Shown: positions 30,126 through 58,052 of the stretch, in pieces | Layout: each line of letters starts with the position of its first letter | Position numbering within the stretch: position 1 is the first letter of the stretch | Source: Firmicutes bacterium HGW-Firmicutes-15 | Lineage (GTDB): Bacteria > Bacillota > Syntrophomonadia > Syntrophomonadales > Syntrophomonadaceae | NCBI GenBank assembly: GCA_002840245.1 | Contig: PHAA01000003.1 | Span: forward strand, 62,001-126,000 | Reading direction: 5' to 3' | DNA length: 64,000 nucleotides | Notes under the pieces: model-generated | Databases searched by the model: none | What the model was told of the DNA's origin: nothing | Seen by the model: the letters and a program-made list of their open reading frames with translations, nothing else | Translations under genes and position numbers: made by a program

Positions 30126-30200
30126 GCGCCCGTAGCTCAGTGGATAGAGCACCGGCCTCCGGAGCCGGGTGCGGAGGTTCGATTCCTCTCGGGCGTACCA
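30126..30200 (+). tRNA. tRNA-Arg (anticodon CCG), prophage integration target
   Basis: A full cloverleaf: acceptor GCGCCCG/CGGGCGT, D arm GCTCAGTGGATAGAGC, anticodon stem CCGGC/GCCGG with loop CTCCGGA (anticodon CCG), four-base variable loop, T arm GGAGG-TTCGATT-CCTCT, and an encoded CCA. It reads CGG. The 3' 46 bases are also the left end of the prophage repeat, so integration rebuilds the gene. Confidence 0.97.
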
Positions 30201-30201
30201 T
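30155..30201 (+). repeat. attL core: 47-bp direct repeat in tRNA-Arg 3' end
   Basis: The sequence from GCCTCCGGAGCCGGGTGCGG to ACCAT is identical to 58006-58052. The flanks differ at once on both sides, as expected for attL and attR of a tyrosine-recombinase element. Confidence 0.95.
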
Positions 30202-30317: not shown

Positions 30318-31274
30318 ATGACCGCAGTTAGAAGACTCAAGATTAGCCCCACCATGCAGAAAAACCTACCAGAAGTGGTGAATCGTTTCCTAGGGTACAA
30401 GCAGGCCCAAGGCCTGGCTCCACGTAGCTTAATGGACTATCAGCACACCTTCAATAAGTTCATGCAGTACACGACCTCCGACGAGCTGGCAGTGGCTCCA
30501 CTCCAGGATGCTCTGCTCCTTTTCTTCCAACGCTTCAAGGACCAATCCCCAACTAGTTATAATATTCCGTATAAGAATTTGAATTGCTTCTTTGCCTGGT
30601 GCATAGAGCAGGAATATCTGTCTCAAAATCCATTAAAGCGAATAGGACTTAAGATTAAGAAGGATACACCTAAGGTTAAACACCATGATGCTGATACAAT
30701 TTCCAAGCTGATTAAGGCACCCGGCCTAGGTACTTTAACTGGTCTGAGGGACTATTCTTTGATGCTTTTGACCTTGGATTGTGGCATCCGACCGAGTGAA
30801 GCTTTCGGGTTAAGAATTCCAGATATTGACTTTGTTCATAAGAGAGTAACTATCTCTGCAGCCATAAGTAAAACCAGAGTAGCGAGGGAGTTACCCTTAT
30901 CAGCTCCTGTTCTACAAACCCTAGAGAAGCTAATCTCAGTCAGACTTACTCAGTTTGAGGATTATGTATTTATGGGGTTAGATGGAAATCCTTTGAATAG
31001 AAACTCCTGGAATCGAAGACTAGCACTGTATTGTGAGAAAGCTGGCATAGAGAAGGTACGCCCATATGACTTGCGGCATTGTTTTGCCATTATGTTTATC
31101 AGAAATGGTGGTGACCCCTTCGCTCTACAGATTCTCATGGGACACGCTGATCTACAAATGACTAAACTATATGTGAAGCTGGCTAATTCAGATGTTGTTA
31201 AGCAGCATACCCAATCCTCTCCAGTCAAGCAATTCGTAAAGCGTTCGACTCGGGTGACGAAGTTATTCCGATGA
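30318..31274 (+). CDS. int: Prophage tyrosine integrase
   Basis: A 318-residue site-specific recombinase. Residues 12-100 form a SAM-like core-binding domain (VNRFLGYKQAQGLAPRSLMD). The catalytic domain has the first Arg in GIRPSEAFGLR, the box YDLRHCFA, LMGHADLQMT and the nucleophile Tyr in TKLYVKL. GGAGGG precedes the ATG. It lies 117 bases inside attL and reads away from it, the standard arrangement. A perfect hairpin terminator follows. Confidence 0.95.
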   Translation: MTAVRRLKISPTMQKNLPEVVNRFLGYKQAQGLAPRSLMDYQHTFNKFMQYTTSDELAVAPLQDALLLFFQRFKDQSPTSYNIPYKNLNCFFAWCIEQEYLSQNPLKRIGLKIKKDTPKVKHHDADTISKLIKAPGLGTLTGLRDYSLMLLTLDCGIRPSEAFGLRIPDIDFVHKRVTISAAISKTRVARELPLSAPVLQTLEKLISVRLTQFEDYVFMGLDGNPLNRNSWNRRLALYCEKAGIEKVRPYDLRHCFAIMFIRNGGDPFALQILMGHADLQMTKLYVKLANSDVVKQHTQSSPVKQFVKRSTRVTKLFR

Positions 31275-38379: not shown

Positions 38380-38772
38380 ATGATAACTGACCCTTTACAA
38401 ACAACGCTACGTAAACATTGCAGTAAATGTGGTAGATACTTACCCGCCACAATCGAATATTTCCACAAAGATAACCGAGGCATATATGGTCTTTATTCTC
38501 GCTGTAAGGATTGCCGGAACTCAACCAATGTCCGAACAGCAATTGTACATGATGGGCTCAAACAATGTGTTCGCTGTAAACGCTGGCTACCTAGCAATAG
38601 TATTTACTTTTGGAATAGCCACGAAGGACGAGAAGGAACATATGGAAGCTGCAAAGAGTGCCACGGTTATAACTTTCGCAGTCAATCTACTGATCCTAAA
38701 TGTATTAAACGAAGGGAGAGGAATCTTGAACGTCTTCAACATAAACAGAAATCAACCCTCTTGGCCACCTGA
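38380..38772 (+). CDS. Double zinc-ribbon phage protein
   Basis: A 130-residue basic protein with two copies of one module: CSKCGRYLPATIEYF...CKDCRN and CVRCKRWLPSNSIYF...CKECHG. Each has CxxC-W/YLP then CxxC and should bind a zinc ion. Similar modules occur with HNH nucleases, but no HNH is present. It overlaps the start of the portal gene by 47 bases in another frame. It may bind DNA near the packaging machine. Confidence 0.75.
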   Translation: MITDPLQTTLRKHCSKCGRYLPATIEYFHKDNRGIYGLYSRCKDCRNSTNVRTAIVHDGLKQCVRCKRWLPSNSIYFWNSHEGREGTYGSCKECHGYNFRSQSTDPKCIKRRERNLERLQHKQKSTLLAT

Positions 38773-40141
38773 TGAATGGGCTGAAATCTATGACAAATAT
38801 CGTGAACACAGCAGTTGGTATTCAGGAAACCCTATTCAGTTAGCCGATTACTATGCCACCAAGGTATATAGTCCAACCAAAAAAGGAACCTTCTGGTCCC
38901 AACATGCACGAGAAGAAGTTTCCACCCGACTGCACATTCCCGTTGCCACAAATCTAGCTTCTACCTCTGCTAGTCTACTCTTTGGAAAGCCCATCATCCC
39001 TACAATTTCTAGTAATCCCGCCTCTCAAGACAGATTACTCCAACTAATTGCCTCCGGAGATATGAATAGCACCTTAAGCGAAGCAGCCGAGTATTGCTCT
39101 GCTCTAGGCGGCGTTTTCTTGAAGATAAACTGGGATTCAACTATTTCACCTAACCCGATATTAAACATCGGACAGCCGGATCAATCAATTATGGACTTCA
39201 AACATGGGATGCTCACTTCCGTCACTTTTCATAAGGAAGTCATAGTAGATGGAAGCGTTGTTTACCGATTATTAGAACGACACGACTCGGGGCTTATCAC
39301 CAACTCGCTTTACAGGGGTTCAGAGACCAAGCTAGGTAGCCCTGTGGCTCTTACTTTCCTACCTCAGACACAAGACCTTCCAGAAGTTATTGAAACCGGC
39401 CTGACTACATTGGCTTGTAGATATATTCCAAATATCCGACCTAATCGGCTCTTTCGTGGATCTAACTTAGGAGTTTCTGATTATGCAGGAATCGAAGGTC
39501 TAATGGATGCTTTGGATGAAGTATATTCCTCATGGATGAATGATTTAGGCCTATCTCGTAGCAGAATCATCGTACCGCAGGATTGGCTCCTGCCCACGAC
39601 TAACGGTAACTACTTTGACATCAATCAATCCGTGTATAGCCCATTGGATATGGACCCAGAAGCGGCTGCTGCCTTTAAACCAGAAATGTTCCAAGCTGCT
39701 ATCCGGGCTTCTGAACATCAGCAAACTGCACTGGAACTTTTGGACAGAATCGTAACTCATTCCGGATATAGCCCATCCACCTATGGTTTAAAAATCGAAG
39801 GTAGAAGTGAATCAGGAACAGCATTGAATATCCGTGAGCGCACGACCTTAGCCACCCGAGAGAAGAAAATTGGCTACTGGCGCAGCAATCTCGAAGATAT
39901 TTTCTATATCCTACAGCAGGTCGACTACCTGCAACTAGGCAACAAAGCCTACCCCGTAAGGCCGACTATTGAATTCCCTGCATATCAAGAAGACGACGAT
40001 TCTCTAATCGCCGCCGTTAAGTCTCTTGCTGAAAGCAAATCAGCCTCCCTCACTACTCGCCTGAAACTTCTGCATCCTTCTTGGTCTCAAGCCGAGATAG
40101 AAGCGGAAACCTTGCTTATCCAAGCTGAAATTACCAATTAG
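38726..40141 (+). CDS. Phage portal protein
   Basis: A 471-residue portal, the dodecameric gate for DNA entry. The position after TerL and the sequence (YYATKVYSPTKKGTFWSQ, FGKPIIPTI, LERHDSGLI, WMNDLGLSRSRIIVP, ESGTALNIRERTTL) fit SPP1/A118-like portals. I place the start at TTG 38726 after GGGAGAGGA; the upstream 99 codons of the same frame overlap the zinc-ribbon gene and do not look like a portal N-terminus. Confidence 0.85.
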   Translation: MNVFNINRNQPSWPPDEWAEIYDKYREHSSWYSGNPIQLADYYATKVYSPTKKGTFWSQHAREEVSTRLHIPVATNLASTSASLLFGKPIIPTISSNPASQDRLLQLIASGDMNSTLSEAAEYCSALGGVFLKINWDSTISPNPILNIGQPDQSIMDFKHGMLTSVTFHKEVIVDGSVVYRLLERHDSGLITNSLYRGSETKLGSPVALTFLPQTQDLPEVIETGLTTLACRYIPNIRPNRLFRGSNLGVSDYAGIEGLMDALDEVYSSWMNDLGLSRSRIIVPQDWLLPTTNGNYFDINQSVYSPLDMDPEAAAAFKPEMFQAAIRASEHQQTALELLDRIVTHSGYSPSTYGLKIEGRSESGTALNIRERTTLATREKKIGYWRSNLEDIFYILQQVDYLQLGNKAYPVRPTIEFPAYQEDDDSLIAAVKSLAESKSASLTTRLKLLHPSWSQAEIEAETLLIQAEITN

Positions 40142-40414: not shown

Positions 40415-41032
40415 ATGGACGAAAGACTAACCGAACTAGAAGCTAAACCCACACTTACTCCTGAAGAGCAGGCAGAGTTACAAGCTCTAAAAGCTAAACC
40501 CCCAGTAACTGACAAGACCTTTACCCAAGCACAATTGGATGATGTTATCACCAAACGCTTAGCCCGGGAGAAGAAAGCCTGGGAGAAAACCCTCGAAGAA
40601 GAGAAAGCCAAAGCCGCTATGACTGAGACGGAACGATTTCAATCCGAGAAACTAGAGGCTCAAAAACTACTCGCTGACAGTCAGGCGAAAGCCAACCAAA
40701 AACTACTTCATGCCGAAATTAGGGTTCAGAGCATTTCGCTTGGCGTCACCGAGAATAAACTTACCTATCTATCCCGTCTGATAGACATCACCGACCCCAA
40801 TCTATTAGATGCCAATGGAGACGTTGATGATAAAGCTGTCAAAGCAGCCGTCAGTAAAATCCTGCAGGACATCCCCGAATTGGCCAGCAAGACCCCATCC
40901 AAGGGAGGTAGTGACTTCTCTGCTGGAAATCCCAAGAGCATCACCAAGGAACAATTCACATCACTTTCATATAAGGACCGGATAGCCTTAAAGGCCTCAA
41001 ACCCGGCCCTTTATAAGCAACTAACAACTTAA
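40415..41032 (+). CDS. Capsid scaffold protein (DUF4355-like)
   Basis: A 205-residue, highly charged helical protein. Residues about 20-110 form a coiled coil (QLDDVITKRLAREKKAWEK), then LGVTENKLTYLSRLIDIT and a short C-terminal helix that would bind the capsid. This layout is typical of DUF4355 scaffolds placed before the major capsid gene. GGAGGTA precedes the ATG. No separate head protease was seen. Confidence 0.8.
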   Translation: MDERLTELEAKPTLTPEEQAELQALKAKPPVTDKTFTQAQLDDVITKRLAREKKAWEKTLEEEKAKAAMTETERFQSEKLEAQKLLADSQAKANQKLLHAEIRVQSISLGVTENKLTYLSRLIDITDPNLLDANGDVDDKAVKAAVSKILQDIPELASKTPSKGGSDFSAGNPKSITKEQFTSLSYKDRIALKASNPALYKQLTT

Positions 41033-41050: not shown

Positions 41051-41899
41051 ATGGCAATTGGACAAACTTATATCACTGACTTAATCGACCCTGAGGTAAT
41101 CAGTCAATTAATCATAGAAAATCTCCCCAAGGAAATCAAATTTGCACCTTTAGCAATCATAGACAATACCCTAGTAGGACAGTCGGGCGACACTATCTCT
41201 ATCCCCACCTGGGAATATATTGGAGATGCAGAGGTTGTAGCTGCAGGCGAAGATGTTCCGATGACCGTGCTGAAAGCAACCACAACTCCTGCCATAATTG
41301 TAAAATATGGGAAGGGAGTAAAACTTAACGATGAAGCCGTACTTTCTGGATATGGAGACCCGATTGGTAACGCTGTTAAGCAGACCACTGAGGCTATCGG
41401 CGCTGGAATTGACAACGCCTGCCTGACCGCATTGAAGACCACTACCCTCACCTTTGGCGTAGCTGCTTCCACTGTAATGAACTATGACAACATAGCCCTG
41501 GCCACGGACGAGTTTGCAAAACAGGATGACGAGATTAAGGTTTTAATCGTCAATCCTCGGTATATTGCTTCTATGAGGAAGGATTATACCATGTGGATGA
41601 CTAAGGAGAAAATGACTGTAGCCCCAATTAACGCTAGTATCATCGGGGAATATGCCGGCTGCCAAGTCATGCCTTCAGATAAAATCGCAGAGGAATCTTC
41701 CGGTGTAGGTGGAGCTGATAAGTTCTTCACTAACCTAATCGTTAAGCCCGGCGCATTGGGCATCTTCATAAAGCGAGATGTAGTGGTTGAAACCGACAAA
41801 GATATAATCGCAGGAGTTACTGTAATTGTTGCCAACGAACATGCCGTGGCCGTGCTGGTTGACCCCAATAAATCAGTCAAGTTTATCACAAAGAAATAG
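41051..41899 (+). CDS. Major capsid protein (N4-gp56/HK97-fold family)
   Basis: A 282-residue protein that forms the head shell. Family-like blocks: YITDLIDPEVISQLI, GDTISIPTWEYIGDAE, VVAAGEDVPMTVLKATTTPA, KLNDEAVLSGYGDPIG, and a late VVVETDKDIIAGVTVIVANE. It follows the scaffold gene by 18 bases. A very stable hairpin comes directly after the stop, which may favour high capsid expression. Confidence 0.85.
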   Translation: MAIGQTYITDLIDPEVISQLIIENLPKEIKFAPLAIIDNTLVGQSGDTISIPTWEYIGDAEVVAAGEDVPMTVLKATTTPAIIVKYGKGVKLNDEAVLSGYGDPIGNAVKQTTEAIGAGIDNACLTALKTTTLTFGVAASTVMNYDNIALATDEFAKQDDEIKVLIVNPRYIASMRKDYTMWMTKEKMTVAPINASIIGEYAGCQVMPSDKIAEESSGVGGADKFFTNLIVKPGALGIFIKRDVVVETDKDIIAGVTVIVANEHAVAVLVDPNKSVKFITKK

Positions 41900-41903
41900 T
41901 TTA

Positions 41904-41930
41904 GAGGGGGTCGCGTTTCGCGACCCCCTC
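41904..41930 (+). terminator. GC-rich hairpin after the capsid gene
   Basis: GAGGGGGTCGCG and CGCGACCCCCTC with a TTT-centred loop, a near-perfect 12-bp stem, lie four bases after the capsid stop. There is no T tract. It may stabilise the upstream mRNA or attenuate downstream reading. Confidence 0.7.
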
Positions 41931-41950: not shown

Positions 41951-42094
41951 ATGTTAATTCATCGAGCTAAGCAACGCAGACTAGCCAAGATAGAAGCCCA
42001 GGCACCTACCGAGATTAAAACCGAACCTGTCGCTTTACCCAAGGTGGCCAAAACTATTAAGAAAACCAAGGAGGAATCCGTAAATGGCAAGTGA
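41951..42094 (+). CDS. Small basic phage protein, 47 residues
   Basis: A 47-codon frame starting MLIHRAKQRRLAKIEAQAPT, Lys/Arg-rich at both ends, with AAGGAG at the right distance. Its stop overlaps the start of the next gene (ATGGCAAGTGA), so it is translated with it. Small basic proteins of this kind often follow capsid genes. No function can be assigned. Confidence 0.6.
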   Translation: MLIHRAKQRRLAKIEAQAPTEIKTEPVALPKVAKTIKKTKEESVNGK

Positions 42095-42443
42095 AATCGT
42101 AGCTGCGGGATACCAGGATGTTAGAGATTACATCCAGGCCAATTGGAAATACATTGAACTCAGGGATGACTTAGGAGTCGCAGTATTACGCCTATCCCCT
42201 GCTGACCCCAGGGTTTCATGGACGCATACCGCTGGAGCACAAACACTGGAATTGAGCATCGTAATCACTGGCTCTGATGCCGGTCTAGTCTTGCCTCAGA
42301 AGTTTGCCTCATCTCTCGTTTACAAAGTTGCAAGCGCTGGCTCTCCTTTGACCTCAGTCCAGACTTTCACTACTTTTGAAATGGCCTCGACCTCGGATCA
42401 GCTGACCATTAAACATAGTATTTCAGTACCGGTGGTAGTGTAA
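42084..42443 (+). CDS. Small head-region protein, beta-rich
   Basis: A 119-residue protein with alternating polar and hydrophobic strands (ELRDDLGVAVLRLS, TLELSIVITGSDAG). Its position after the capsid suggests a head decoration or completion protein, but I recognise no family. The AAGGAGG site lies within the preceding small gene. Confidence 0.55.
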   Translation: MASEIVAAGYQDVRDYIQANWKYIELRDDLGVAVLRLSPADPRVSWTHTAGAQTLELSIVITGSDAGLVLPQKFASSLVYKVASAGSPLTSVQTFTTFEMASTSDQLTIKHSISVPVVV

Positions 42444-42484: not shown

Positions 42485-44587
42485 ATGTCAAACATAGCTC
42501 AGATTAGTGCTACTTTTTACGGAACTATGGCAGTCAAGGCAGATGGCACTTTGTGGGGTGCTGGTCAGAATTCTAATTATGAATTAGGGTTACCCACCAC
42601 CGCTAATTATAAAGTGCTGACCCAAATAGGTAGTGATACTAATTGGATAGCTGTAGCCTGCGGTTATTATCATTCCCTTGCAATCAAGAGTGATGGTTCC
42701 TTATGGGGATGTGGCAAAAACAATTATGGCCAACTAGGCCAAGGTGATATCATTGCTCGGACAGTCTTTACCCAAATAGGAACTAGTACGGATTGGGTTA
42801 GCATAGCCTGTGGAAATAGTCATAGTCTTGCAATAAAGTCCAATCATACACTGTGGGGATGTGGCTCAAATAGTTATTGCTCACTAGGATTAGGCAACAA
42901 CACTTCCCCAATAACCAGTCTTACCCAGATAGGAATTTGTACGGATTGGAAAACTATAGCGTGTGGACCATATCACAGCCTGGCTATAAAGACTGACCAA
43001 ACCTTATGGGGTACAGGTTATAATCGCAATGGAGAATTAGGCTTAAATGACCTTACTGATAGAAATGTTTTTACCCAAATAAATAGTGTTACTACTTGGA
43101 AAGTTGTACGAGGTGGAGCCTTCCATACCCTGGCCATAAAAATGGATGGCACTTTATGGGCTACTGGCCTCAATACTAGCGGCCAGTTAGGACAAGGCGA
43201 CCTCACTCTTCGCAAGGTTTTTACCCAAATAGGTACTGATACTAATAATTTATCAATATCAGCAAACGGTGATAAAAGTTTAGTAGTTAAGAGTGATGGT
43301 AGTTTATGGGGATGCGGACATAATAGTTATGGCTCACTAGGATTAGGCAATAATACTTCCCCAATAACCAGTCTCACCCAGGAATACACGACCGCTACCA
43401 ATTGGTTATTTGTTGTGAGTGGTATGTATCATACAATGGCTCTTAAAGCAGATGGTAGCCTACTGGGTACAGGTTATAATTCTAATGGGCAACTCAGCCG
43501 TAATAATGCCACTAGTATCAATAGATTTACTCAATCAATCATACCCGTTGTTTATCGAGTAAATTCATATATTAACCCCGTATATAGTTCTAATACAACT
43601 ACCCGGAAGAAATACCTGGCGATTATATCCTATCTGAATCCTATAAACACCAGCAACTCTACGAGTAAGATTCAAACCCTTTCGGTAAGTTCATATCTTA
43701 ATCAGATTGCTTCCAATGTTTCAGTAAGCAGAACCACACAGGTAACTCTATTTTCATATCTCAATCCTCTGGAAAGCAGTGTACATATCGACCGTAAATT
43801 ACACCTCACTGTAGCTAACTTTATGCGGCCGATATTCTCTTCCGCCACTAGTGGACGCAGCAAAATGTATGAACTGGAATCATATCTACGCAGCATCAAT
43901 ACCGACCTAGCTTTAAGTAAATCTCAGCACTCCGAGGTTATCACTTATTTCAATCCTATAGTTAGTTATACGCAGACTCAAATTGGGGTTCAGTATATTC
44001 TTAACAGCTACCTCCGGCCTATTGAATCTGCCATTGATGTAAGTAAAATTAGTACCCGGGAAATATCCCATTACTTAAATCCACTCTTTTGCGCCAATAC
44101 GATTCAGAAGAAGGCTCATTACAGCTCCAACTCTTTCCTGAACCCCATATTTAGCCTAAATCACATATACATTCCGGGAGTATTCCTTGATGTATCTTAC
44201 TTTGAAACCCTTGTAAAATTGCATTACTGCGGACCCTATGTAAATCTGCAATACAATGAAACAATTGTAACTCTTAGTTATAGAAAACCACCAGGAGGTG
44301 ATGAAATGCCCCTAGCAGGAAACACAGTAACTTTAACAGGTGAGTTCCTTACTCAAAATGGAGCACACGTAAGCGTCGACAATTTAAGTGTTCAGATTTA
44401 TAACGAAAAGAAACAGCTCATACTTTCAGATACCCAAGGTATTATCCAAGAATCTACGGGAACATACACCTATGATTACCTCATCCCTCAGGGATTGGGA
44501 CCTATGTATTTTGAATTCTCTGGATATTATGGAGATAAGTTTATGACTGGTAGAGCTGTTCTGGATAGAGAGTGGGTGCCGGTATGA
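42485..44587 (+). CDS. RCC1-propeller and 21-residue-repeat structural protein
   Basis: A 700-residue three-part protein. Residues 1-350 contain seven RCC1 repeats of about 50 residues (HSLAIKSDGSLWGCG and relatives), enough for one closed seven-bladed propeller. Residues 361-570 are ten tandem repeats of exactly 21 residues with core SYLNPI. Residues 571-607 are a linker and 608-700 a beta-rich domain that also has its own ribosome site and ATG. It sits between capsid-side genes and the head-tail connector, so it is probably a virion surface or neck-fibre protein that binds something. I know of no standard phage protein with this layout. Confidence 0.85.
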   Translation: MSNIAQISATFYGTMAVKADGTLWGAGQNSNYELGLPTTANYKVLTQIGSDTNWIAVACGYYHSLAIKSDGSLWGCGKNNYGQLGQGDIIARTVFTQIGTSTDWVSIACGNSHSLAIKSNHTLWGCGSNSYCSLGLGNNTSPITSLTQIGICTDWKTIACGPYHSLAIKTDQTLWGTGYNRNGELGLNDLTDRNVFTQINSVTTWKVVRGGAFHTLAIKMDGTLWATGLNTSGQLGQGDLTLRKVFTQIGTDTNNLSISANGDKSLVVKSDGSLWGCGHNSYGSLGLGNNTSPITSLTQEYTTATNWLFVVSGMYHTMALKADGSLLGTGYNSNGQLSRNNATSINRFTQSIIPVVYRVNSYINPVYSSNTTTRKKYLAIISYLNPINTSNSTSKIQTLSVSSYLNQIASNVSVSRTTQVTLFSYLNPLESSVHIDRKLHLTVANFMRPIFSSATSGRSKMYELESYLRSINTDLALSKSQHSEVITYFNPIVSYTQTQIGVQYILNSYLRPIESAIDVSKISTREISHYLNPLFCANTIQKKAHYSSNSFLNPIFSLNHIYIPGVFLDVSYFETLVKLHYCGPYVNLQYNETIVTLSYRKPPGGDEMPLAGNTVTLTGEFLTQNGAHVSVDNLSVQIYNEKKQLILSDTQGIIQESTGTYTYDYLIPQGLGPMYFEFSGYYGDKFMTGRAVLDREWVPV
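43565..44194 (+). repeat. Ten 63-bp coding repeats (21-residue period)
   Basis: Ten units in a row, all exactly 21 codons, start with SYINPV, SYLNPI, SYLNQI, SYLNPL, NFMRPI, SYLRSI, TYFNPI, SYLRPI, HYLNPL and SFLNPI. The remaining 15 positions vary, with Ser/Thr/Asn about position 8-10. DNA identity between units is low, so the repeat is old and kept by selection on protein structure. Confidence 0.92.
44306..44587 (+). CDS. Nested in-frame start: 93-residue C-terminal domain product
   Basis: AGGAGGTGAT at 44293-44302 is a full Shine-Dalgarno, followed after three bases by ATG 44306, in frame inside the 700-residue gene. It would yield the last 93 residues alone (MPLAGNTVTLTGEFLTQNGA onward), which has the look of a free-standing phage Ig-like protein. 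Either the domain is made in excess separately, or a once separate gene was fused to the repeat protein. Confidence 0.6.
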   Translation: MPLAGNTVTLTGEFLTQNGAHVSVDNLSVQIYNEKKQLILSDTQGIIQESTGTYTYDYLIPQGLGPMYFEFSGYYGDKFMTGRAVLDREWVPV

Positions 44588-44931
44588 TTTATGCCACCAA
44601 AGAACAACTGCTCCTCTATCTAGGTCTAACCGAAGCTGACCTACCCTCCGACATTGACAGAATACTAGCCCGGGCCTCCGAGACCATCGATTATTTCACC
44701 TCCAACCATATCACCAATCTCCATTACCAAATAGCTGAATCTGCTACTTGCGCTCAGGTAGAATATTGGCTGCAGATAGATGAAAGCATGGATATCATAG
44801 GCTCAGTTAAATCATTCTCCATGGGTAAATTCTCTATGGATTATGCCACAAGTATGCCAGTACTAGCACCTCGAGCCCGTCAGTTATTACTGCGGAGTGG
44901 TTTGATGTATAGAGGAGTGCGAATCATATGA
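44584..44931 (+). CDS. Head-tail connector (gp6-like adaptor)
   Basis: A 115-residue helical protein starting MIYATKEQLLLYLGLTEAD, with ILARASETIDYFTS. It fits the gp6/YqbG adaptor group that binds the portal. ATG 44584 overlaps the preceding stop as ATGA; an earlier in-frame start would overlap more. Next genes overlap by four bases, forming a tight connector cassette. Confidence 0.75.
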   Translation: MIYATKEQLLLYLGLTEADLPSDIDRILARASETIDYFTSNHITNLHYQIAESATCAQVEYWLQIDESMDIIGSVKSFSMGKFSMDYATSMPVLAPRARQLLLRSGLMYRGVRII

Positions 44932-45233
44932 GAATACCCAGCTTCCTTTTAAATCAGACTGCGGAGATAAACCTGCACAAGGGGTCCTCAGCCTACGGCG
45001 ATGTGTATGCGTCTAACCCTAACTATACCAAGGCATACCTAGAAAGCAGCAGTCGCATGATTAAAAGCCCTTCCGGCGATGACACTGTAGCCACCGCTAT
45101 TGCACTGGTTCCTTATGGTACCCAAATCACCTTAAATAGCCATTTCACCGTAGATAATCACACTTATACCGTAATTGGCATCATCCCCAATAAAGGCTTT
45201 ACTGGTTCTCATTTGGAAGTGGTTCTGCAATGA
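44928..45233 (+). CDS. Head closure / head-tail joining protein
   Basis: A 101-residue beta-rich protein (QTAEINLHKGSSAYGDVY, TYTVIGIIPNKGFTGSHLEV). Size, position and fold pattern fit SPP1 gp16-type head-closure proteins. It overlaps both neighbours by ATGA-type junctions. Confidence 0.7.
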   Translation: MRIPSFLLNQTAEINLHKGSSAYGDVYASNPNYTKAYLESSSRMIKSPSGDDTVATAIALVPYGTQITLNSHFTVDNHTYTVIGIIPNKGFTGSHLEVVLQ

Positions 45234-45565
45234 ATGACGGACTGAAATGGAATGGCACTAAAGTACTGAAAGCTGTAGAGAAAGCTGGCATCAGAGGTCA
45301 ATTAGCAGCAGCTGAAACCATCCTGGAAGTATCCAATCAACGGGTGCCATTAGACAAAGGTGAGTTACGGGATTCTGGTCATGTTACTCAGGGTGAACAT
45401 CAAACAGTAATATCTTATGACTGCCCATATGCAGTTAAATGGCATGAGACCCCGGCTCACTTTCAACATGGACGCAGAAACAAGTACCTGCAATCAGCAG
45501 TAGAAGATGAAGCACAGAATGCACTTAAGCAACTGGCTAAAGTTATAGACAAGGAACTGAGGTGA
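45230..45565 (+). CDS. HK97 gp10-like tail completion / minor capsid protein
   Basis: A 111-residue protein. VPLDKGELRDSGHVT and YAVKWHETPAHFQHGRRNKY match the gp10/minor capsid pattern (LDKG-LR-S and YA---H). It joins head and tail. GGTTCTGCAA precedes the ATG in the end of the upstream gene. Confidence 0.8.
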   Translation: MNDGLKWNGTKVLKAVEKAGIRGQLAAAETILEVSNQRVPLDKGELRDSGHVTQGEHQTVISYDCPYAVKWHETPAHFQHGRRNKYLQSAVEDEAQNALKQLAKVIDKELR

Positions 45566-45571
45566 TTACAT

Positions 45572-45994
45572 TTGACCCTGATAGAACAGATAGCCTATTA
45601 CCTGCATGAGAATAACATCGGCATCTTTGACCCTACCGGCGTCACTGGTAACATCTTTCTCGCTACTGTTCCTGATAAACCAGATCAATGTATAGCCATA
45701 TTCCCTGCCGGCGGCACTCAGTCAAATGGTAAGTTAGCCTATGACAATCCCAACATACAAATATGGATTAGAGGCTCCAACAACCCTATTACTGGCATGG
45801 TCAAGGCTCAAGATATCTATGACCTGCTGCATGGTTTTTATCAATCCAGGTTTTATCCGGATGGCAACTATATATTGGATTGCTTGGGACAACAATCAGC
45901 ACCTATCAGTATAGGTAAAGACTCACAGGGGAGATTCGAGTTCAGTCTAAACTTTAAGATTGAACATCAAAACATAAATAGGAGGAATTCATAA
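45572..45994 (+). CDS. Tail terminator / minor capsid protein
   Basis: A 140-residue protein: IAYYLHENNIGIF, NIFLATVPDKPDQCIAIFP and IQIWIRGSNN. It fits the tail-terminator group, the last connector before the tail tube gene. TTG 45572 is used, with GAGGTGAT five bases upstream. Confidence 0.72.
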   Translation: MTLIEQIAYYLHENNIGIFDPTGVTGNIFLATVPDKPDQCIAIFPAGGTQSNGKLAYDNPNIQIWIRGSNNPITGMVKAQDIYDLLHGFYQSRFYPDGNYILDCLGQQSAPISIGKDSQGRFEFSLNFKIEHQNINRRNS

Positions 45995-46687
45995 ATGCCA
46001 GAAATCAAAGTATTAGCCCGAGACATGAACGTTTTCATTAAGGTTGCTACTGTCTGGACCGAGATTAAGGAACTGAATACCGTAACCTTTGGTTCCAGCA
46101 AGAACGACGCTGACACCACAACTTTCACTGACGGAGGCTGGAATACTCACATCGTAACTAGTCGAGGCAGAACCTGCAAACTGGAAGGCTTCTATGTAAT
46201 CGATGAAGTTACCAAAGCCAGAAACCCTGGTCAAGCCGCAGTAGATGCACTTAACAATGCTATTGGCTATGCATCCCTGGGAGAATTCAAAGTAGTTTTC
46301 CCGGATGATACCAATAAGACATTCCTGGCCTCAGTTAATCTTATCGATTTGGGTGGAGGCAATGACGACGGACTACCTTGGGGCGCAGAGCTAACTGTAT
46401 CCGGAGAAGTAACTGACGGATCAGAGTCAGACGTTGTAGTTACCGGAGTCACCTTGAATAAGACTACTTCCACTCTGGCAGTAGGAGCGAATGAAACTTT
46501 GTTAGCCACGGTTGCACCAGTCAATGCTACTAATAAGAACGTTACCTTCATCTCTAGCAATCCGGCTAAGGCCACTGTAGACGGTGTAGGCAAAGTAGTC
46601 GCTGTAGCCGCAGGAGTTGTAACCATAACTGTTACCACAGATGAAGGCCACTTTACTGCTGACTGCGTGTACACTGTCACCGCATAG
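45995..46687 (+). CDS. Major tail tube protein with C-terminal Big_2 domain
   Basis: A 230-residue protein. Residues 1-145 are the tube domain (MPEIKVLARDMNVFIKV, TTFTDGGWNTHIVTSRGRTC, WGAELTVSGEV). Residues 150-230 are a bacterial Ig-like group 2 domain (VTGVTLNKTTSTLAVG, SSNPAKATVDGVGKVV, AAGVVTITVTT). Such add-on domains decorate the tube surface and may bind carbohydrate weakly. AGGAGGAATTC precedes the ATG. Confidence 0.87.
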   Translation: MPEIKVLARDMNVFIKVATVWTEIKELNTVTFGSSKNDADTTTFTDGGWNTHIVTSRGRTCKLEGFYVIDEVTKARNPGQAAVDALNNAIGYASLGEFKVVFPDDTNKTFLASVNLIDLGGGNDDGLPWGAELTVSGEVTDGSESDVVVTGVTLNKTTSTLAVGANETLLATVAPVNATNKNVTFISSNPAKATVDGVGKVVAVAAGVVTITVTTDEGHFTADCVYTVTA

Positions 46688-47441: not shown

Positions 47442-49397
47442 TTGGCAATTAGAGTAGGAGAACTATTCGCCCAACTCATGATGAACTCTGAAGGTTTCAA
47501 GAAGGGCCTGGATAAAGCGGAGAAAGCCCTGGATAACCTAGGTAAGAAATCGATTGAGATAGGTAAGAAAGCTAGCGCAGCCCTTACCGCTGCTGGAGTA
47601 GCCGCCGCAGGAGTCATTATTAAAAACTCCCTGGATGCTACCTCTGCTCAAGGTAAGTTAAAAGCCCAACTGGGTTTAACCAAACAAGAAGCTGACGAAC
47701 TAGGCAAAGTAGCCAAGGATGTATGGAAATCCGGCTGGGGAGAAAGCATTGCTGATGTAGATTCCGCTATCGTCAGTGTTCGCAATAACATGGGTAAAAT
47801 GTCTCCCCAAGATTTAGAAGCGATGACTAAAGCCGCCCTTATCTTAGGTGGTACCTTTGACCAAGATGTATCTGAAACCACCCGGGTTGCCGGGGTAATG
47901 ATGAAGAACTTTGGCATCACTGGTCAGCAATCCATGGATCTACTCACGGCTGGTTTTCAGAGGGGTGCAAATTCCTCGGATGACCTGCTGGATACATTTA
48001 CAGAATACTCGCCCAAGTTCAAAGCTTTAGGTCTTGATGCGGCAGATTCAATGAACATACTGATAGCTGGCATGAGCAATGGAGCCCGCAATACTGATGT
48101 TTTAGCTGATGCAGTTAAAGAGTTCAGCATCCGGGCTATAGATGGCTCCAAAACCACTGCTGACGGATATGAACTGGTAGGACTAAATGCTGACCAGATG
48201 GCGGCTGCTATTGCACAAGGCGGCCCTACTGCTAAGAAGGCTTTTCAACAAACCATAAGTGCTCTGGCCAGTATCAAAGACCCGGTTAAACAAAGCCTGG
48301 CTGGGGTAGCACTGTTTGGTACCAAGTGGGAAGACGTTGGCCCTCAAGCAATCCTGGCTATGGGTAATGCCGGAGATGCACTAGGTGACTTTGCTGACGC
48401 TACTGCTAAGGCTGGTAAGGATATCCAAGATAATAACCCGGCTATGCAATTAACCGCAGCCATGAGAGAGATGCAAACAGCGATAGAACCCATCTTAAAA
48501 CCCATAGCAGATCTATTAACCAATGTAGTGATTCCAGCTGTTAAAGCACTGGTAGCTACTTTTGTGGCTCTCCCTGCTCCAGTACAGAACATGCTTCTAG
48601 GAATAGCCGGGTTACTGGTAATCTTAGGACCGATATGCGTAGGGATAGGAATGTTTGTGAGTGGCCTGGGTGCATTATCCGGATTGTTACCAATATTGAC
48701 TGGGTTGTTATCTGTACTAGGTGCTGCGATTGCCTTTGTATGTAGCCCCATTGGTTTAGCTGTCGCGGCTATTGCTTTATTGGCTGCAGGTGCATATTAC
48801 GTCTATAAAAACTGGAGCACCCTCGGCCCTATGCTATCTAGGAGTATGTCCGGGATAACTGATAAGATAACCGGTCCATTTACTAGAGCCAAGAATGCTA
48901 TTATGAATACCTTGAACGACATCAAAGCTTTCATCGCCAACTTCAAATGGTCGGCCATCAGTTTACCCAGTATTAAAATGCCCTGGAGCAGCGATACCCC
49001 TACCACCCCAGGGACAGCCCCTACACAACCCGGCATAATGGATACCTTGAAGAACTCAGTGGGGTGGCATGCCAAGGGTGGAGTATTCACCGGCCCATCT
49101 CTGGTGGGTATAGGCGAGCAATTAGGTGTAAACGAAGCAGTAGTGCCTCTCAGCGGACAATACATGAAACCCTTTGCTCAACAGATAGCCAGTCTTATGG
49201 GTAGCAATAACAGCAACCGCAGCACTACTATCCATCACGAAGTTAATCTTAACAATGTACCGGCCGGTATTGACCAAGCAGATCTGAAGCGTGGCATCAT
49301 GAGTGCCTTGGGTTCTCCGGAAGTACGCCGGGAGCTTGATATTGTAAATTATAAGAACCGGTCCAGTAACGTTAGGCCGAAAGGAGCATTTGCATGA
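47442..49397 (+). CDS. Tail tape measure protein
   Basis: A 651-residue protein that sets tail length and is injected on infection. The N-terminus (LFAQLMMNSEGFKKGLDKAE) and central RVAGVMMKNFGITGQQSMDL, GANSSDDLLDTFTEY are typical of TP901-type tape measures; there is a hydrophobic stretch at about 370-460. Size suggests a tail of about 100 nm. Start is TTG 47442 after GGCAGGTGAC. Its end overlaps the Dit gene by ATGA. Confidence 0.92.
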   Translation: MAIRVGELFAQLMMNSEGFKKGLDKAEKALDNLGKKSIEIGKKASAALTAAGVAAAGVIIKNSLDATSAQGKLKAQLGLTKQEADELGKVAKDVWKSGWGESIADVDSAIVSVRNNMGKMSPQDLEAMTKAALILGGTFDQDVSETTRVAGVMMKNFGITGQQSMDLLTAGFQRGANSSDDLLDTFTEYSPKFKALGLDAADSMNILIAGMSNGARNTDVLADAVKEFSIRAIDGSKTTADGYELVGLNADQMAAAIAQGGPTAKKAFQQTISALASIKDPVKQSLAGVALFGTKWEDVGPQAILAMGNAGDALGDFADATAKAGKDIQDNNPAMQLTAAMREMQTAIEPILKPIADLLTNVVIPAVKALVATFVALPAPVQNMLLGIAGLLVILGPICVGIGMFVSGLGALSGLLPILTGLLSVLGAAIAFVCSPIGLAVAAIALLAAGAYYVYKNWSTLGPMLSRSMSGITDKITGPFTRAKNAIMNTLNDIKAFIANFKWSAISLPSIKMPWSSDTPTTPGTAPTQPGIMDTLKNSVGWHAKGGVFTGPSLVGIGEQLGVNEAVVPLSGQYMKPFAQQIASLMGSNNSNRSTTIHHEVNLNNVPAGIDQADLKRGIMSALGSPEVRRELDIVNYKNRSSNVRPKGAFA

Positions 49398-49774: not shown

Positions 49775-51193
49775 ATGGTCATAAAAGTATATCAAGATGT
49801 CCTAACCGCAACATTGAATGCGGATCTGGTTAGCAGCTGCATTGAAACTGAAGCCCTGGAAGGAGAAAGAACACTAACCTTCACCTATCCCAGTAATGCA
49901 CCTGAATCTCCAGCCTTGCGTGATGGATATTCAGTAATGATAGACCAAGTAGCTGGAGCTGAAGATGCATGGCAGGAATATGTTATCCGCAACGTAGCAC
50001 CACGCATAAATGATAGCGGACAGTTCTACGATGTCAGCTGTGAACATGCATATTATGACCTGGCTACTGAGCCGCTGGTTACAATTCTGCCCAATACCTA
50101 TACCGTAGAAAGTGTTCTGGATGTAGTTTTGGATGGCACCGGTTGGACAACCGGTAACTTTGATAATCTTGATGTCAAAGCTACTGATATTCCCAAGAAC
50201 AACCCCCTGGCTGCCCTGAGAATAGCTAACGACAAAGACCACTGGCCCGGAGAGTATTATTTCTCTTCTATTATAAGTGGCAATTCCGTTACCAGACGGG
50301 TAGATCTATTAACCCAAAGAGGACACAACCGGGGTAGAAGAATTGAATATGCCTACAATCTGGTGGATATAAGCATCGAGATTAATAAGACTAATGTTTT
50401 TACTGCTATGTACGGAGCAGGGTCTAGTGACCCCGATATTCCCAATGACACCGAAGACTTTGCAAATGTAGTATGGTCAATTGCCAATGGAGACCCAACT
50501 GATAAACCCCTGGGGCAAACCTGGGTAGGTGATGAAGCAGCCCGTTTACTCTATGGCAAGTACCGCATGACTACCGGGGAACGCAAACATCTCTTCGGAG
50601 TCTATGATGGCGGAGAATCAGATAAGGCCGCACTTCTACTGAACACCTGGAATGCCCTACAGACGACTAATAAACCTTTGGTGAACATTAGGGCTGCCTT
50701 AGCTAATCTTGCCTTGCTACCGGGCTTCAGCGACGAGCTTTTTAGCCTGGGTGACACCGTGACCGTTGATATCCCCAATATGGACGAGTTTACTACCCGC
50801 ATTATCAGGGTGGAGTGGGACCGGGTTAATTATATGCAGACCATGGTAGAGTTGGGTGGTTTTCAACCTACTGGATCAGGTCTATTTAGTAGTAATAATG
50901 CCAACGTAACCAGTGACAGTATAATAGATGCCTTAGGCTTTACTCCAGAGAACGCAGCTAATAAAGGTCAAGATAATGGCTATGCAGGTCTAAATGCTAA
51001 CGGTAAAGTTCCAGTTGACCAACTACCAGCTGATATAGGCATGGCTAACCACGGCAATGACTATCACACCTCCACTTTTATTACTGCTGCTGATGTACTT
51101 TCCAAAACCAATACCACTGAATATAACCCCACCACTGATTATCATCCCGCTACCAAGAAATATGTGGATGACCAATACGCCAAGTTTGGCTAA
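49775..51193 (+). CDS. Tail endopeptidase/tail spike (Tal-like)
   Basis: A 472-residue hub protein of the prophage endopeptidase tail family (LVSSCIETEALEGERTLTF, WQEYVIRNVAPR, DVSCEHAYYDLA, NNPLAALRIANDKDHW). About the last 90 residues resemble tail-fibre connectors (ALGFTPENAANKGQDNGYAG, NANGKVPVDQLP, YHPATKKYVDDQYAKFG). It forms the tail tip and links to a fibre. No peptidoglycan hydrolase domain is visible. Confidence 0.82.
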   Translation: MVIKVYQDVLTATLNADLVSSCIETEALEGERTLTFTYPSNAPESPALRDGYSVMIDQVAGAEDAWQEYVIRNVAPRINDSGQFYDVSCEHAYYDLATEPLVTILPNTYTVESVLDVVLDGTGWTTGNFDNLDVKATDIPKNNPLAALRIANDKDHWPGEYYFSSIISGNSVTRRVDLLTQRGHNRGRRIEYAYNLVDISIEINKTNVFTAMYGAGSSDPDIPNDTEDFANVVWSIANGDPTDKPLGQTWVGDEAARLLYGKYRMTTGERKHLFGVYDGGESDKAALLLNTWNALQTTNKPLVNIRAALANLALLPGFSDELFSLGDTVTVDIPNMDEFTTRIIRVEWDRVNYMQTMVELGGFQPTGSGLFSSNNANVTSDSIIDALGFTPENAANKGQDNGYAGLNANGKVPVDQLPADIGMANHGNDYHTSTFITAADVLSKTNTTEYNPTTDYHPATKKYVDDQYAKFG

Positions 51194-51208: not shown

Positions 51209-52477
51209 ATGCAAGCTCCTACTAATATAAGTGTAGGTCAAGCCAACCAAAGCAGTACCTATCCTCATTCAGCAAATCTATATGTAAGTTTTACTCCCGA
51301 CACAGATCCGAACCGAACAGGTACTGTGGTAAGAGTAGCCACAAGTGAAGCTAACCTTGCTAATGAAAGCACCTGTGTAAAGGTAGATTATACCGGCAAC
51401 TGGTCTGATACGCCTCAGAACTCTACGGGGATGCTTATCGATGGCTACAATTCTACAGTTATACTACCTAGCCGCAACACCAATTATTACTATAAATTGG
51501 CTACCTATATAAGGACGGGAGAATATCCCTACACTTACACCTATAGTGATTGGTCGGATGCTCATACATTCTTATCCTTGCCAGCCGCACCTACTAATTT
51601 TGCGTTGGTAGAATATGTAGAAGGTGGAGCCACTTTCTCTTGGACTGGTGTAGGAGTAGATAGGTACCAGATATCGTGGCAGTATGATGATATGGATGCA
51701 GACGTAGATAATATCTCAGCCTCTCCATATAGCTGCAATCATTTATTTGTACCAGGAGCTTATGACCCTCAAGATGTATGGGTACGGGCAGTCAATTCGT
51801 CAGGATGGGTAGGTGACTGGTCGGCTCCTGTCAGTAATATATATGTCAGACCGCCTACTATAGCTATTACTGTAAGTGTAAATCCTCAAGGTAAAGCTAC
51901 TGCCTCCACAACCTATCAGCCTGGCTCGTGCCCAACTACCAATGGTGATGAGTGGATATTCTATTATCTGTATGATGCTGCTGGAAACCTAATCTCATCT
52001 GCCGCCAGTAATACCTACTACAATAATAATCATCAATTTACCGGACTAACCCCGGGTGTAACCTACAAGATAAATGCCCGAGTTAGAGATACAGCCAATG
52101 GCACCTGGATATGGAGTTTAGCTTACTCCAACACGGTGACCTTTGTAGCATCATCCCCTCCTGATGATTTTATATGGTGGACACCCAAGGTATCAGAGGG
52201 GCGCTATGGTATGGAGGCAGCTGAATGGAATGCCTTTACTACCCGCCTAAATGAATTCAGAGCATATATAAATGAAACCCCATATAGTTTTACTGCCGTA
52301 GCAACTGGTGATGATTTTACATCGGGGATATTCAAGGAATCTTACAATGCACTGCATCTAATAACTGTTCCCAACCATACTCTGGGAAATTACTCTGCTG
52401 TTAAGCGTGGAGATAGAATATATGCCAGTTACCTGAACAATATTGTTCAGTACATGAACGGCATAAGAGATATGTAA
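51209..52477 (+). CDS. Tail fibre/receptor-binding protein with Fn3-like domains
   Basis: A 422-residue beta-rich protein. Three Fn3-like segments can be picked out (SAAAPTNFALVEYVEGGATF-like turn near 125, WVRAVNSSGWVGDWS, GLTPGVTYKINARVRD). The C-terminal 90 residues are a different, helical domain (WNAFTTRLNEFRAYINE, GDRIYASYLNNIVQYMN). Most likely it binds the host surface. GAGGTG precedes the ATG. Confidence 0.7.
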   Translation: MQAPTNISVGQANQSSTYPHSANLYVSFTPDTDPNRTGTVVRVATSEANLANESTCVKVDYTGNWSDTPQNSTGMLIDGYNSTVILPSRNTNYYYKLATYIRTGEYPYTYTYSDWSDAHTFLSLPAAPTNFALVEYVEGGATFSWTGVGVDRYQISWQYDDMDADVDNISASPYSCNHLFVPGAYDPQDVWVRAVNSSGWVGDWSAPVSNIYVRPPTIAITVSVNPQGKATASTTYQPGSCPTTNGDEWIFYYLYDAAGNLISSAASNTYYNNNHQFTGLTPGVTYKINARVRDTANGTWIWSLAYSNTVTFVASSPPDDFIWWTPKVSEGRYGMEAAEWNAFTTRLNEFRAYINETPYSFTAVATGDDFTSGIFKESYNALHLITVPNHTLGNYSAVKRGDRIYASYLNNIVQYMNGIRDM

Positions 52478-52794: not shown

Positions 52795-52880
52795 ATCAGG
52801 AGGAGGGATTCGAACCCTCGAGTGAGTTACCCCACCTACCGATTATAAGTCGGCTGCCTTTACCGTTCGGCCACCCCTCC
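52795..52880 (-). tRNA. Class II tRNA-like gene with UAU anticodon, antisense in the lysis region
   Basis: On the minus strand: GGAGGGG, TG, D arm GCC/GGC, anticodon stem GCCGA/TCGGT with loop CTTATAA (anticodon UAU), an 18-base variable arm with a GTG/CAC stem, T arm GAGGG-TTCGAAT-CCCTC. The body resembles tRNA-Tyr, yet UAU would read AUA (Ile). The acceptor stem pairs at five of seven positions, with the two outermost pairs lost, and no CCA is encoded. It could be a phage tRNA in decay or an unusual decoder. Confidence 0.7.
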
Positions 52881-52966
52881 ACGTCATATCAATTATATAC
52901 AAAATAATGTAAATTGTACAATTTTTATCACTATGAATGTTGAAAAGGTTAAGATAGGAGGAATAT

Positions 52967-58005: not shown

Positions 58006-58052
58006 GCCTCCGGAGCCGGGTGCGGAGGTTCGATTCCTCTCGGGCGTACCAT
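58006..58052 (+). repeat. attR core: 47-bp copy of the tRNA-Arg 3' end
   Basis: Identical to 30155-30201. Downstream follows the ancestral terminator of the tRNA gene. Confidence 0.95.

Follow-up and report, generated by a model that had tools for sequence, protein, structure and literature searches.

An RCC1 propeller protein in a siphophage head-connector module, a candidate accessory adhesion fibre

A prophage of Firmicutes bacterium HGW-Firmicutes-15 encodes a protein in which a predicted seven-bladed RCC1 propeller is followed by a series of short repeats and a small C-terminal domain. The DNA analysed (the window) is 64,000 nucleotides long, and the protein, of 700 aa, is the product of a single ORF running from an ATG at 42485 to a stop at 44587. 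Together with a preceding gene for a 119-aa protein it makes up a cassette that recurs with another tip in a related siphophage and lies beside unrelated head modules in ~16-kb capsid-encoding elements. We consider the protein to be an accessory virion adhesion fibre, most likely mounted at the head or neck, in which the RCC1 propeller would be the tip, the 21-aa repeats the stalk, and the C-terminal domain plus the 119-aa protein the anchor; we give this reading a probability of roughly 0.6.

Propeller, stalk and C-terminal domain

Three Pfam models for RCC1 matched the 700-aa protein, each above its cut-off (150 bits for PF25390, 22 for PF13540 and 21.7 for PF00415). PF25390 scored 229 bits (1e-67), PF13540 172 bits over seven stretches (9.5e-52) and PF00415 140 bits (3.2e-41). 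The units start at residues 5, 55, 105, 156, 206, 256 and 308, a spacing of 50-52 aa, and are 33-62% identical to one another. AlphaFold2 modelled residues 1-340 confidently (pLDDT mostly 75-96, with dips near 35 and 285), from an alignment that excluded the stalks of the ~16-kb elements, which MAFFT had smeared across the RCC1 part. The seven units closed into a single propeller. This model superposes on UVR8 (Z 50.5, 1.9 A across 352 residues), RPGR (Z 44) and human RCC1 (Z 40.3), supporting the prediction that residues 1-357 are one complete, closed seven-bladed propeller. The eukaryotic proteins have the same fold (Z 40-50) at 22-28% identity. The original prediction of a complete seven-repeat RCC1 propeller, for which it had proposed structure prediction as a check, is thus borne out by Pfam, unit spacing and superposition. 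It had placed the domain at 42485-43535; the start is right but the end falls short, since the domain stops near residue 357, i.e. about 43555.

Units 3 and 6 share 62% protein and 65% DNA identity, which had hinted at a recent block duplication of three units. As pairs 2/5 (58%) and 4/7 (42%) are no closer than neighbouring units, we do not claim such a duplication.

Downstream of the propeller lie ten repeats, each exactly 21 aa (for example SYINPVYSS... and SYLNPINTS...). Self-similarity reached 0.93 at lag 21, whereas no lag exceeded -0.09 in any of 500 shuffles, and pLDDT was below 50 throughout this region. The C-terminal domain was modelled with pLDDT mostly above 90 and has a weak match to phrog_18294 (3.7e-4). 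In nearly all relatives it is a separate gene of ~93 aa, whilst in the window it is fused to the stalk protein. When this domain alone was used as query, no match was obtained in viral contigs or the phage collection, and profiles were required. Neither the stalk of 21-aa repeats nor the C-terminal domain nor the 119-aa partner gene figured in the original prediction. A different repeat stalk with short beta repeats (ITQQQSEALEIVQRR), reminiscent in style of the linker of the cassette fibre, was seen in a tail-region protein of a phage in another genome (G541, L187:16445-17629).

The 119-aa partner protein was modelled as an N-terminal helix and a beta-sandwich (pLDDT 80). After VIA re-alignment its best PDB matches were A511 gp105 (Z 5.7) and an arm segment of phi812 (Z 5.2), followed by a Bas63 connector chain (Z 5.0), all of them weak (below 8). 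These three, each a phage arm or connector protein, stand apart from the next match at 3.9. A511 gp105 attaches RBPs (PMC11406892). Both leading matches come from contractile-tail baseplates and are 6-10% identical to the 119-aa protein, too weak for a claim of homology. Low as they are, these Z values suggest a fibre-attachment role. The structural matches listed for this protein did not include BppU, which anchors the lactococcal NPS, and sequence profiles of the 119-aa protein and of the C-terminal domain found nothing convincing in the PDB.

The prophage and the cassette in other genomes

The prophage spans 27,851 bp from repeat to repeat (Table 1), and its structural genes follow the usual siphophage order. 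TerS, TerL, portal, scaffold and MCP genes lie upstream of the RCC1 gene, and the head-tail adaptor, connectors, MTP and TMP genes downstream. The location originally described, between capsid-side and connector genes, proved correct: the MCP and 119-aa genes are on one side and the adaptor gene on the other, its ATG overlapping the RCC1 gene stop in the sequence ATGA (44584-44587). A tape measure gene is present, so the phage has its own tail.

Table 1. Positions of prophage features and of the domains of the RCC1 protein in the window.
Feature	Position	Strand	Basis
attL, 47-bp direct repeat, 3' half of tRNA-Arg(CCG) 30126-30200	30155..30201	+	
Tyrosine integrase, adjoins first att repeat	30318..31274	+	PF00589 9.4e-34
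Portal protein, homologous core from near residue 103	38429..40141	+	phrog_533 6.8e-89; 53% to G601
Scaffolding protein	40415..41032	+	phrog_2303; 51% identity to G601
Major capsid protein (MCP)	41051..41899	+	phrog_544 5.8e-64, PF25209; 44-46% to G601
119-aa cassette protein, candidate fibre-attachment protein	42084..42443	+	homologs, AlphaFold2, structural matches
RCC1 seven-bladed propeller (putative tip), residues 1-357	42485..43555	+	Pfam, unit spacing, AlphaFold2, superposition
Putative stalk, ten 21-aa repeats (SYLNPI-type), residues 361-570	43565..44194	+	lag-21 self-similarity
Linker with short beta repeats, residues ~571-607	44195..44305	+	sequence; alike position in other cassette proteins
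C-terminal beta-sandwich, residues 608-700	44306..44584	+	A4 family; phrog_18294; AlphaFold2
Head-tail adaptor	44584..44931	+	phrog_541 2.3e-19; 57% to G601
Three more connector/neck genes	44928..45994	+	phrog_3881, phrog_556, phrog_2595
Major tail protein (MTP) with C-terminal Big_2 domain	45995..46687	+	Pfam, PHROGs
Tape measure protein (TMP)	47442..49397	+	phrog_1272 1.2e-73
attR, exact second copy of the 47-bp repeat	58006..58052	+	

Several other features of the prophage were recorded. A perfect 12-bp GC-rich hairpin without a clear T run lies right after the MCP gene (41904-41930) and may dampen expression of the genes that follow it, the RCC1 gene among them. The MTP, with its Ig-like Big_2 C-terminus, may be another decoration on the surface of this virion. 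The 422-aa product of 51209-52477, encoded after a tail endopeptidase-like protein, has weak fn3 and phrog_37329 matches and is a candidate tail-tip receptor-binding protein. ARAGORN placed a tRNA-Ile (TAT) inside the prophage at 52796-52881 (-), on the strand opposite the structural genes. Near attR, the 390-aa product of 56567-57739 matches HEPN weakly (E 7e-4, short of the cut-off), and its gene is possibly an accessory defence gene.

Relatives of the cassette were sought in a sample of genomes. A profile combining the 119-aa protein with its first homolog picked out 12 viral contigs; once enlarged, it recovered six named genomes, of which five are filed under Bacillaceae-type genera and one under Chryseobacterium. 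The last (L076, JAGGQZ010000015.1), titled Chryseobacterium sp. ISL-80, carries a Bacillaceae-type element, and its title may be wrong. In the close relatives read, a homolog of the 119-aa protein (51-66% identity) comes first, then a stalk-repeat protein, then the separate ~93-aa homolog of the C-terminal domain. When the host order was sampled further using the C-terminal profile, the window was the sole match, and RCC1 on this stalk was a single instance among the sampled genomes.

A homologous siphophage (G601, locus L128), the genes of which match those of the window phage one for one, carries the cassette in the same slot. Identity to the window is 57% for the 119-aa protein, 43% for the C-terminal domain, 40-50% for the neck genes after the adaptor and 57% for the MTP. 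The stalks match weakly (22%); in G601 lag 21 was the best lag, yet within the range of the shuffles. Residues 1-355 of the window protein, the RCC1 part, had no match in G601, where the tip is instead an ALK-type glycine-rich domain with an inserted DUF6273. As the end piece of the protein thus differs between two related phages while its place is unchanged, a swappable host-binding fibre is probable. The variable N-terminus and conserved C-terminus support attachment of the fibre through its C-terminal end.

How widely the cassette occurs in this phage group was gauged through the MCP. On its own the window MCP recovered no viral relative, and 49 loci were found once the G601 MCP was added. 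The survey comprised 38 distinct viral-contig MCPs homologous to those of the window and G601, with 30 loci extending at least 2.5 kb downstream. Homologs of the 119-aa protein or C-terminal domain within 6 kb of the MCP were found in none of these 30 other sampled phages. Judged by gene content, the cassette is accessory in this phage group, because all 30 lack it. The original prediction had named absence from close relatives of the prophage, coupled with expression only in the host, as a finding that would count against it. The outcome is mixed, as G601 has the cassette with another tip and the 30 others do not, and therefore fits an accessory module.

The cassette was also found in elements of ~16 kb integrated in Bacillaceae and relatives (L069, L070, L073, L123, L126, L127 and G098:C1 about 973400-990350). 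These encode an SU10-type MCP (PF17236), an SPP1-type portal (PF05133, phrog_64), TerL, connector-like genes and an integrase; the window's MCP and portal are of different families (phrog_544 and phrog_533). The cassette directly precedes scaffold and MCP, and its 119-aa proteins are 51-66% identical to that of the window. The tip is a GLUG-type region, a beta-helix (PF07581 1.1e-7 in one tested). Six loci (L088, L091, L094, L130, L131 and L133), some apparently the same element counted twice, have a tip-less middle protein of ~135-150 aa of repeats. The simplest reading of these sequences is that the cassette was passed between head modules of unrelated kinds.

None of the ORFs tested in the ~16-kb elements matched tail families, and in G098 and G827 host genes follow the element. 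A divergent short tail is possible, because several element proteins match nothing. The elements look like capsid-forming satellites. Such satellites, the cfPICI, make their own capsids (PMC11389934). The ~16-kb relatives encode a capsid of their own along with an integrase, a portal, a terminase and connector-like proteins, and no recognisable tail proteins, whereas the window phage is a full siphophage. On this evidence we tentatively propose, as a possibility falling a little short of even odds, that a mobile three-part head/neck fibre cassette moves between siphophages and tail-less capsid-encoding elements, settling beside unrelated capsid genes, with RCC1 as one of several tips.

Alternative readings of the protein

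The strongest alternative is that the protein is a tail fibre or tail-tip adhesin merely encoded near head genes. Homologs of cassette parts do occur in tail-fibre regions: a divergent homolog of the 119-aa protein follows the tape measure gene of one siphophage (G351), and in G205 the C-terminal domain is found next to baseplate-like genes, preceded by a 769-aa protein whose repeat stalk is glycine-rich; in G138 it comes after a 493-aa repeat protein. The parts thus seem to serve fibres in general, and a strict head-only reading was dropped. In the G351 siphophage a WD40-like propeller protein (L063:10303-11682) is encoded two genes past the 119-aa homolog. The 119-aa fold also resembles baseplate arm proteins. 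The original prediction had proposed a profile search for RCC1 in phage head modules. The domain proved not to be rare in phages, with three PHROGs families (phrog_7220, phrog_4219 and phrog_16766) and 53 matching phage records, and some RCC1 proteins adjoin annotated tail-fibre genes (Clostridioides phage LIBA6276). In BFVD, the proteins that match the model include some with a tail-fibre annotation (Pseudomonas phages Littlefix and PollyC). The phage RCC1 proteins examined (Clostridioides LIBA6276, Brevibacillus Jenst and Bacillus SP-15) are 27-38% identical over the propeller, but lie in other contexts and lack the stalk and C-terminal domain of the window protein.

Against a tail fibre, the gene sits between MCP and adaptor in both the window and G601, the ~16-kb elements carry the cassette beside capsid genes and have no recognisable tail genes, and the window phage already has tail-tip candidates at 49775 and 51209. 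We therefore regard the tail-fibre reading as unlikely, and favour the head or neck for this cassette because of its position in the window, in G601 and in the elements. Since relatives of its parts also lie in tail-fibre regions, this attachment is something we infer.

An intracellular role in DNA condensation, packaging or host takeover, as the eukaryotic name would suggest, is considerably less probable. PHROGs assigns RCC1 families to nucleic-acid metabolism, a category probably derived from the name, and the phAPEC6 authors speculated on DNA ordering (PMC7247149). No intracellular role would be common to all tips of a fibre combining a 21-aa repeat stalk and a beta-sandwich with propeller, glycine-rich or beta-helix ends. 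Ran-type GEF partners are not known from bacteria, and GTPase exchange or a nuclear function as a Ran exchange factor is not expected in a bacterium.

Two further readings are very improbable. Host relatives carry RCC1 proteins, one with a signal-peptide-like N-terminus, and the gene could accordingly be a lysogenic-conversion or host surface protein carried into the prophage. The 700-aa protein, however, lacks a strongly hydrophobic N-terminus, its gene is co-directional and overlapping with the adaptor gene, the RCC1 proteins of host relatives have no stalk, and it is the sole RCC1 gene found in its own genome; we judged a host-surface origin unlikely on these grounds. A virion role limited to capsid stabilisation or decoration, with no ligand bound, would suit a beta-sandwich protein encoded beside the MCP, but leaves unexplained the exchange among three unrelated tips of often ligand-binding kinds.

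Proposed mechanism and known appendages

In the accessory adhesion fibre that we favour, the C-terminal beta-sandwich and 119-aa protein would fix the fibre to the particle, and the ten 21-aa repeats would hold out the N-terminal propeller as the exposed binding tip. The propeller would bind a cell-surface ligand, probably a glycan, and so raise reversible adsorption at a stage when the tail tip has yet to engage its receptor. Few systems of ancillary adhesins on phage heads or necks are known. The original prediction was of a head or neck appendage that recognises host surface ligands. The appendage part fits the architecture, the lack of a strongly hydrophobic N-terminus, the gene's slot, the tip replacement in G601 and the cassette beside capsid genes of elements without recognisable tail genes; for ligand recognition, we infer it.

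A close parallel in design is the neck passage structure (NPS) of lactococcal 936 and P335 (TP901-1) phages, an accessory appendage of the head-tail connector. One end of it is conserved, and beyond a stalk it bears distal binding modules that can be exchanged, a beta-helix among them. It is reported to be non-essential and to be expressed with the capsid in TP901-1 (PMC6669499). The NPS is a single gene with an N-terminal BppU-like conserved part, a coiled-coil stalk and distal CBMs, whereas the window fibre has an N-terminal tip, a 21-aa-repeat stalk, a conserved C-terminal domain and a separate preceding 119-aa gene. Where the NPS has its BppU-like anchor, the 700-aa protein has the RCC1 propeller. 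An exchangeable module on the stalk is common to both, being RCC1 in the window, the glycine-rich domain with DUF6273 in G601 and GLUG in the ~16-kb elements. The likeness is one of shared design, not of membership.

The head spike of RcGTA, with an Rcc01079 base and an Rcc01080 fibre, mediates capsule binding (PMC7296036). Like the window pair it is encoded by two genes, for a small base protein and a long flexible fibre, but its base is a jellyroll and its fibre is attached through the N-terminus. A head or neck appendage is a feasible mechanism, since both the NPS (PMC6669499) and RcGTA spikes (PMC7296036) work in this way; by analogy with the same two precedents, the glycan ligand is our guess.

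Neither RCC1 domains in phages nor exchangeable neck adhesins (PMC6669499) are new. The apparent novelty lies in the setting, where an exchangeable head/neck cassette that capsid-encoding elements also carry has RCC1 as its tip; a description of the cassette was not found among the open-licence papers of the PMC literature.

If the proposal is true, particles exchange a propeller for a beta-helix or a glycine-rich end and so alter how they first touch a surface, independently of what the tail does. Phage RCC1 domains, which usually carry a chromosome-condensation annotation, gain a testable role as fibre tips, and the slot between the 119-aa gene and the C-terminal domain becomes a defined place for finding new binding domains. 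A cassette common to siphophages and apparently capsid-only elements would show that appendages travel as modules. It also poses the puzzle of why a particle apparently needing another phage's tail keeps a fibre of its own.
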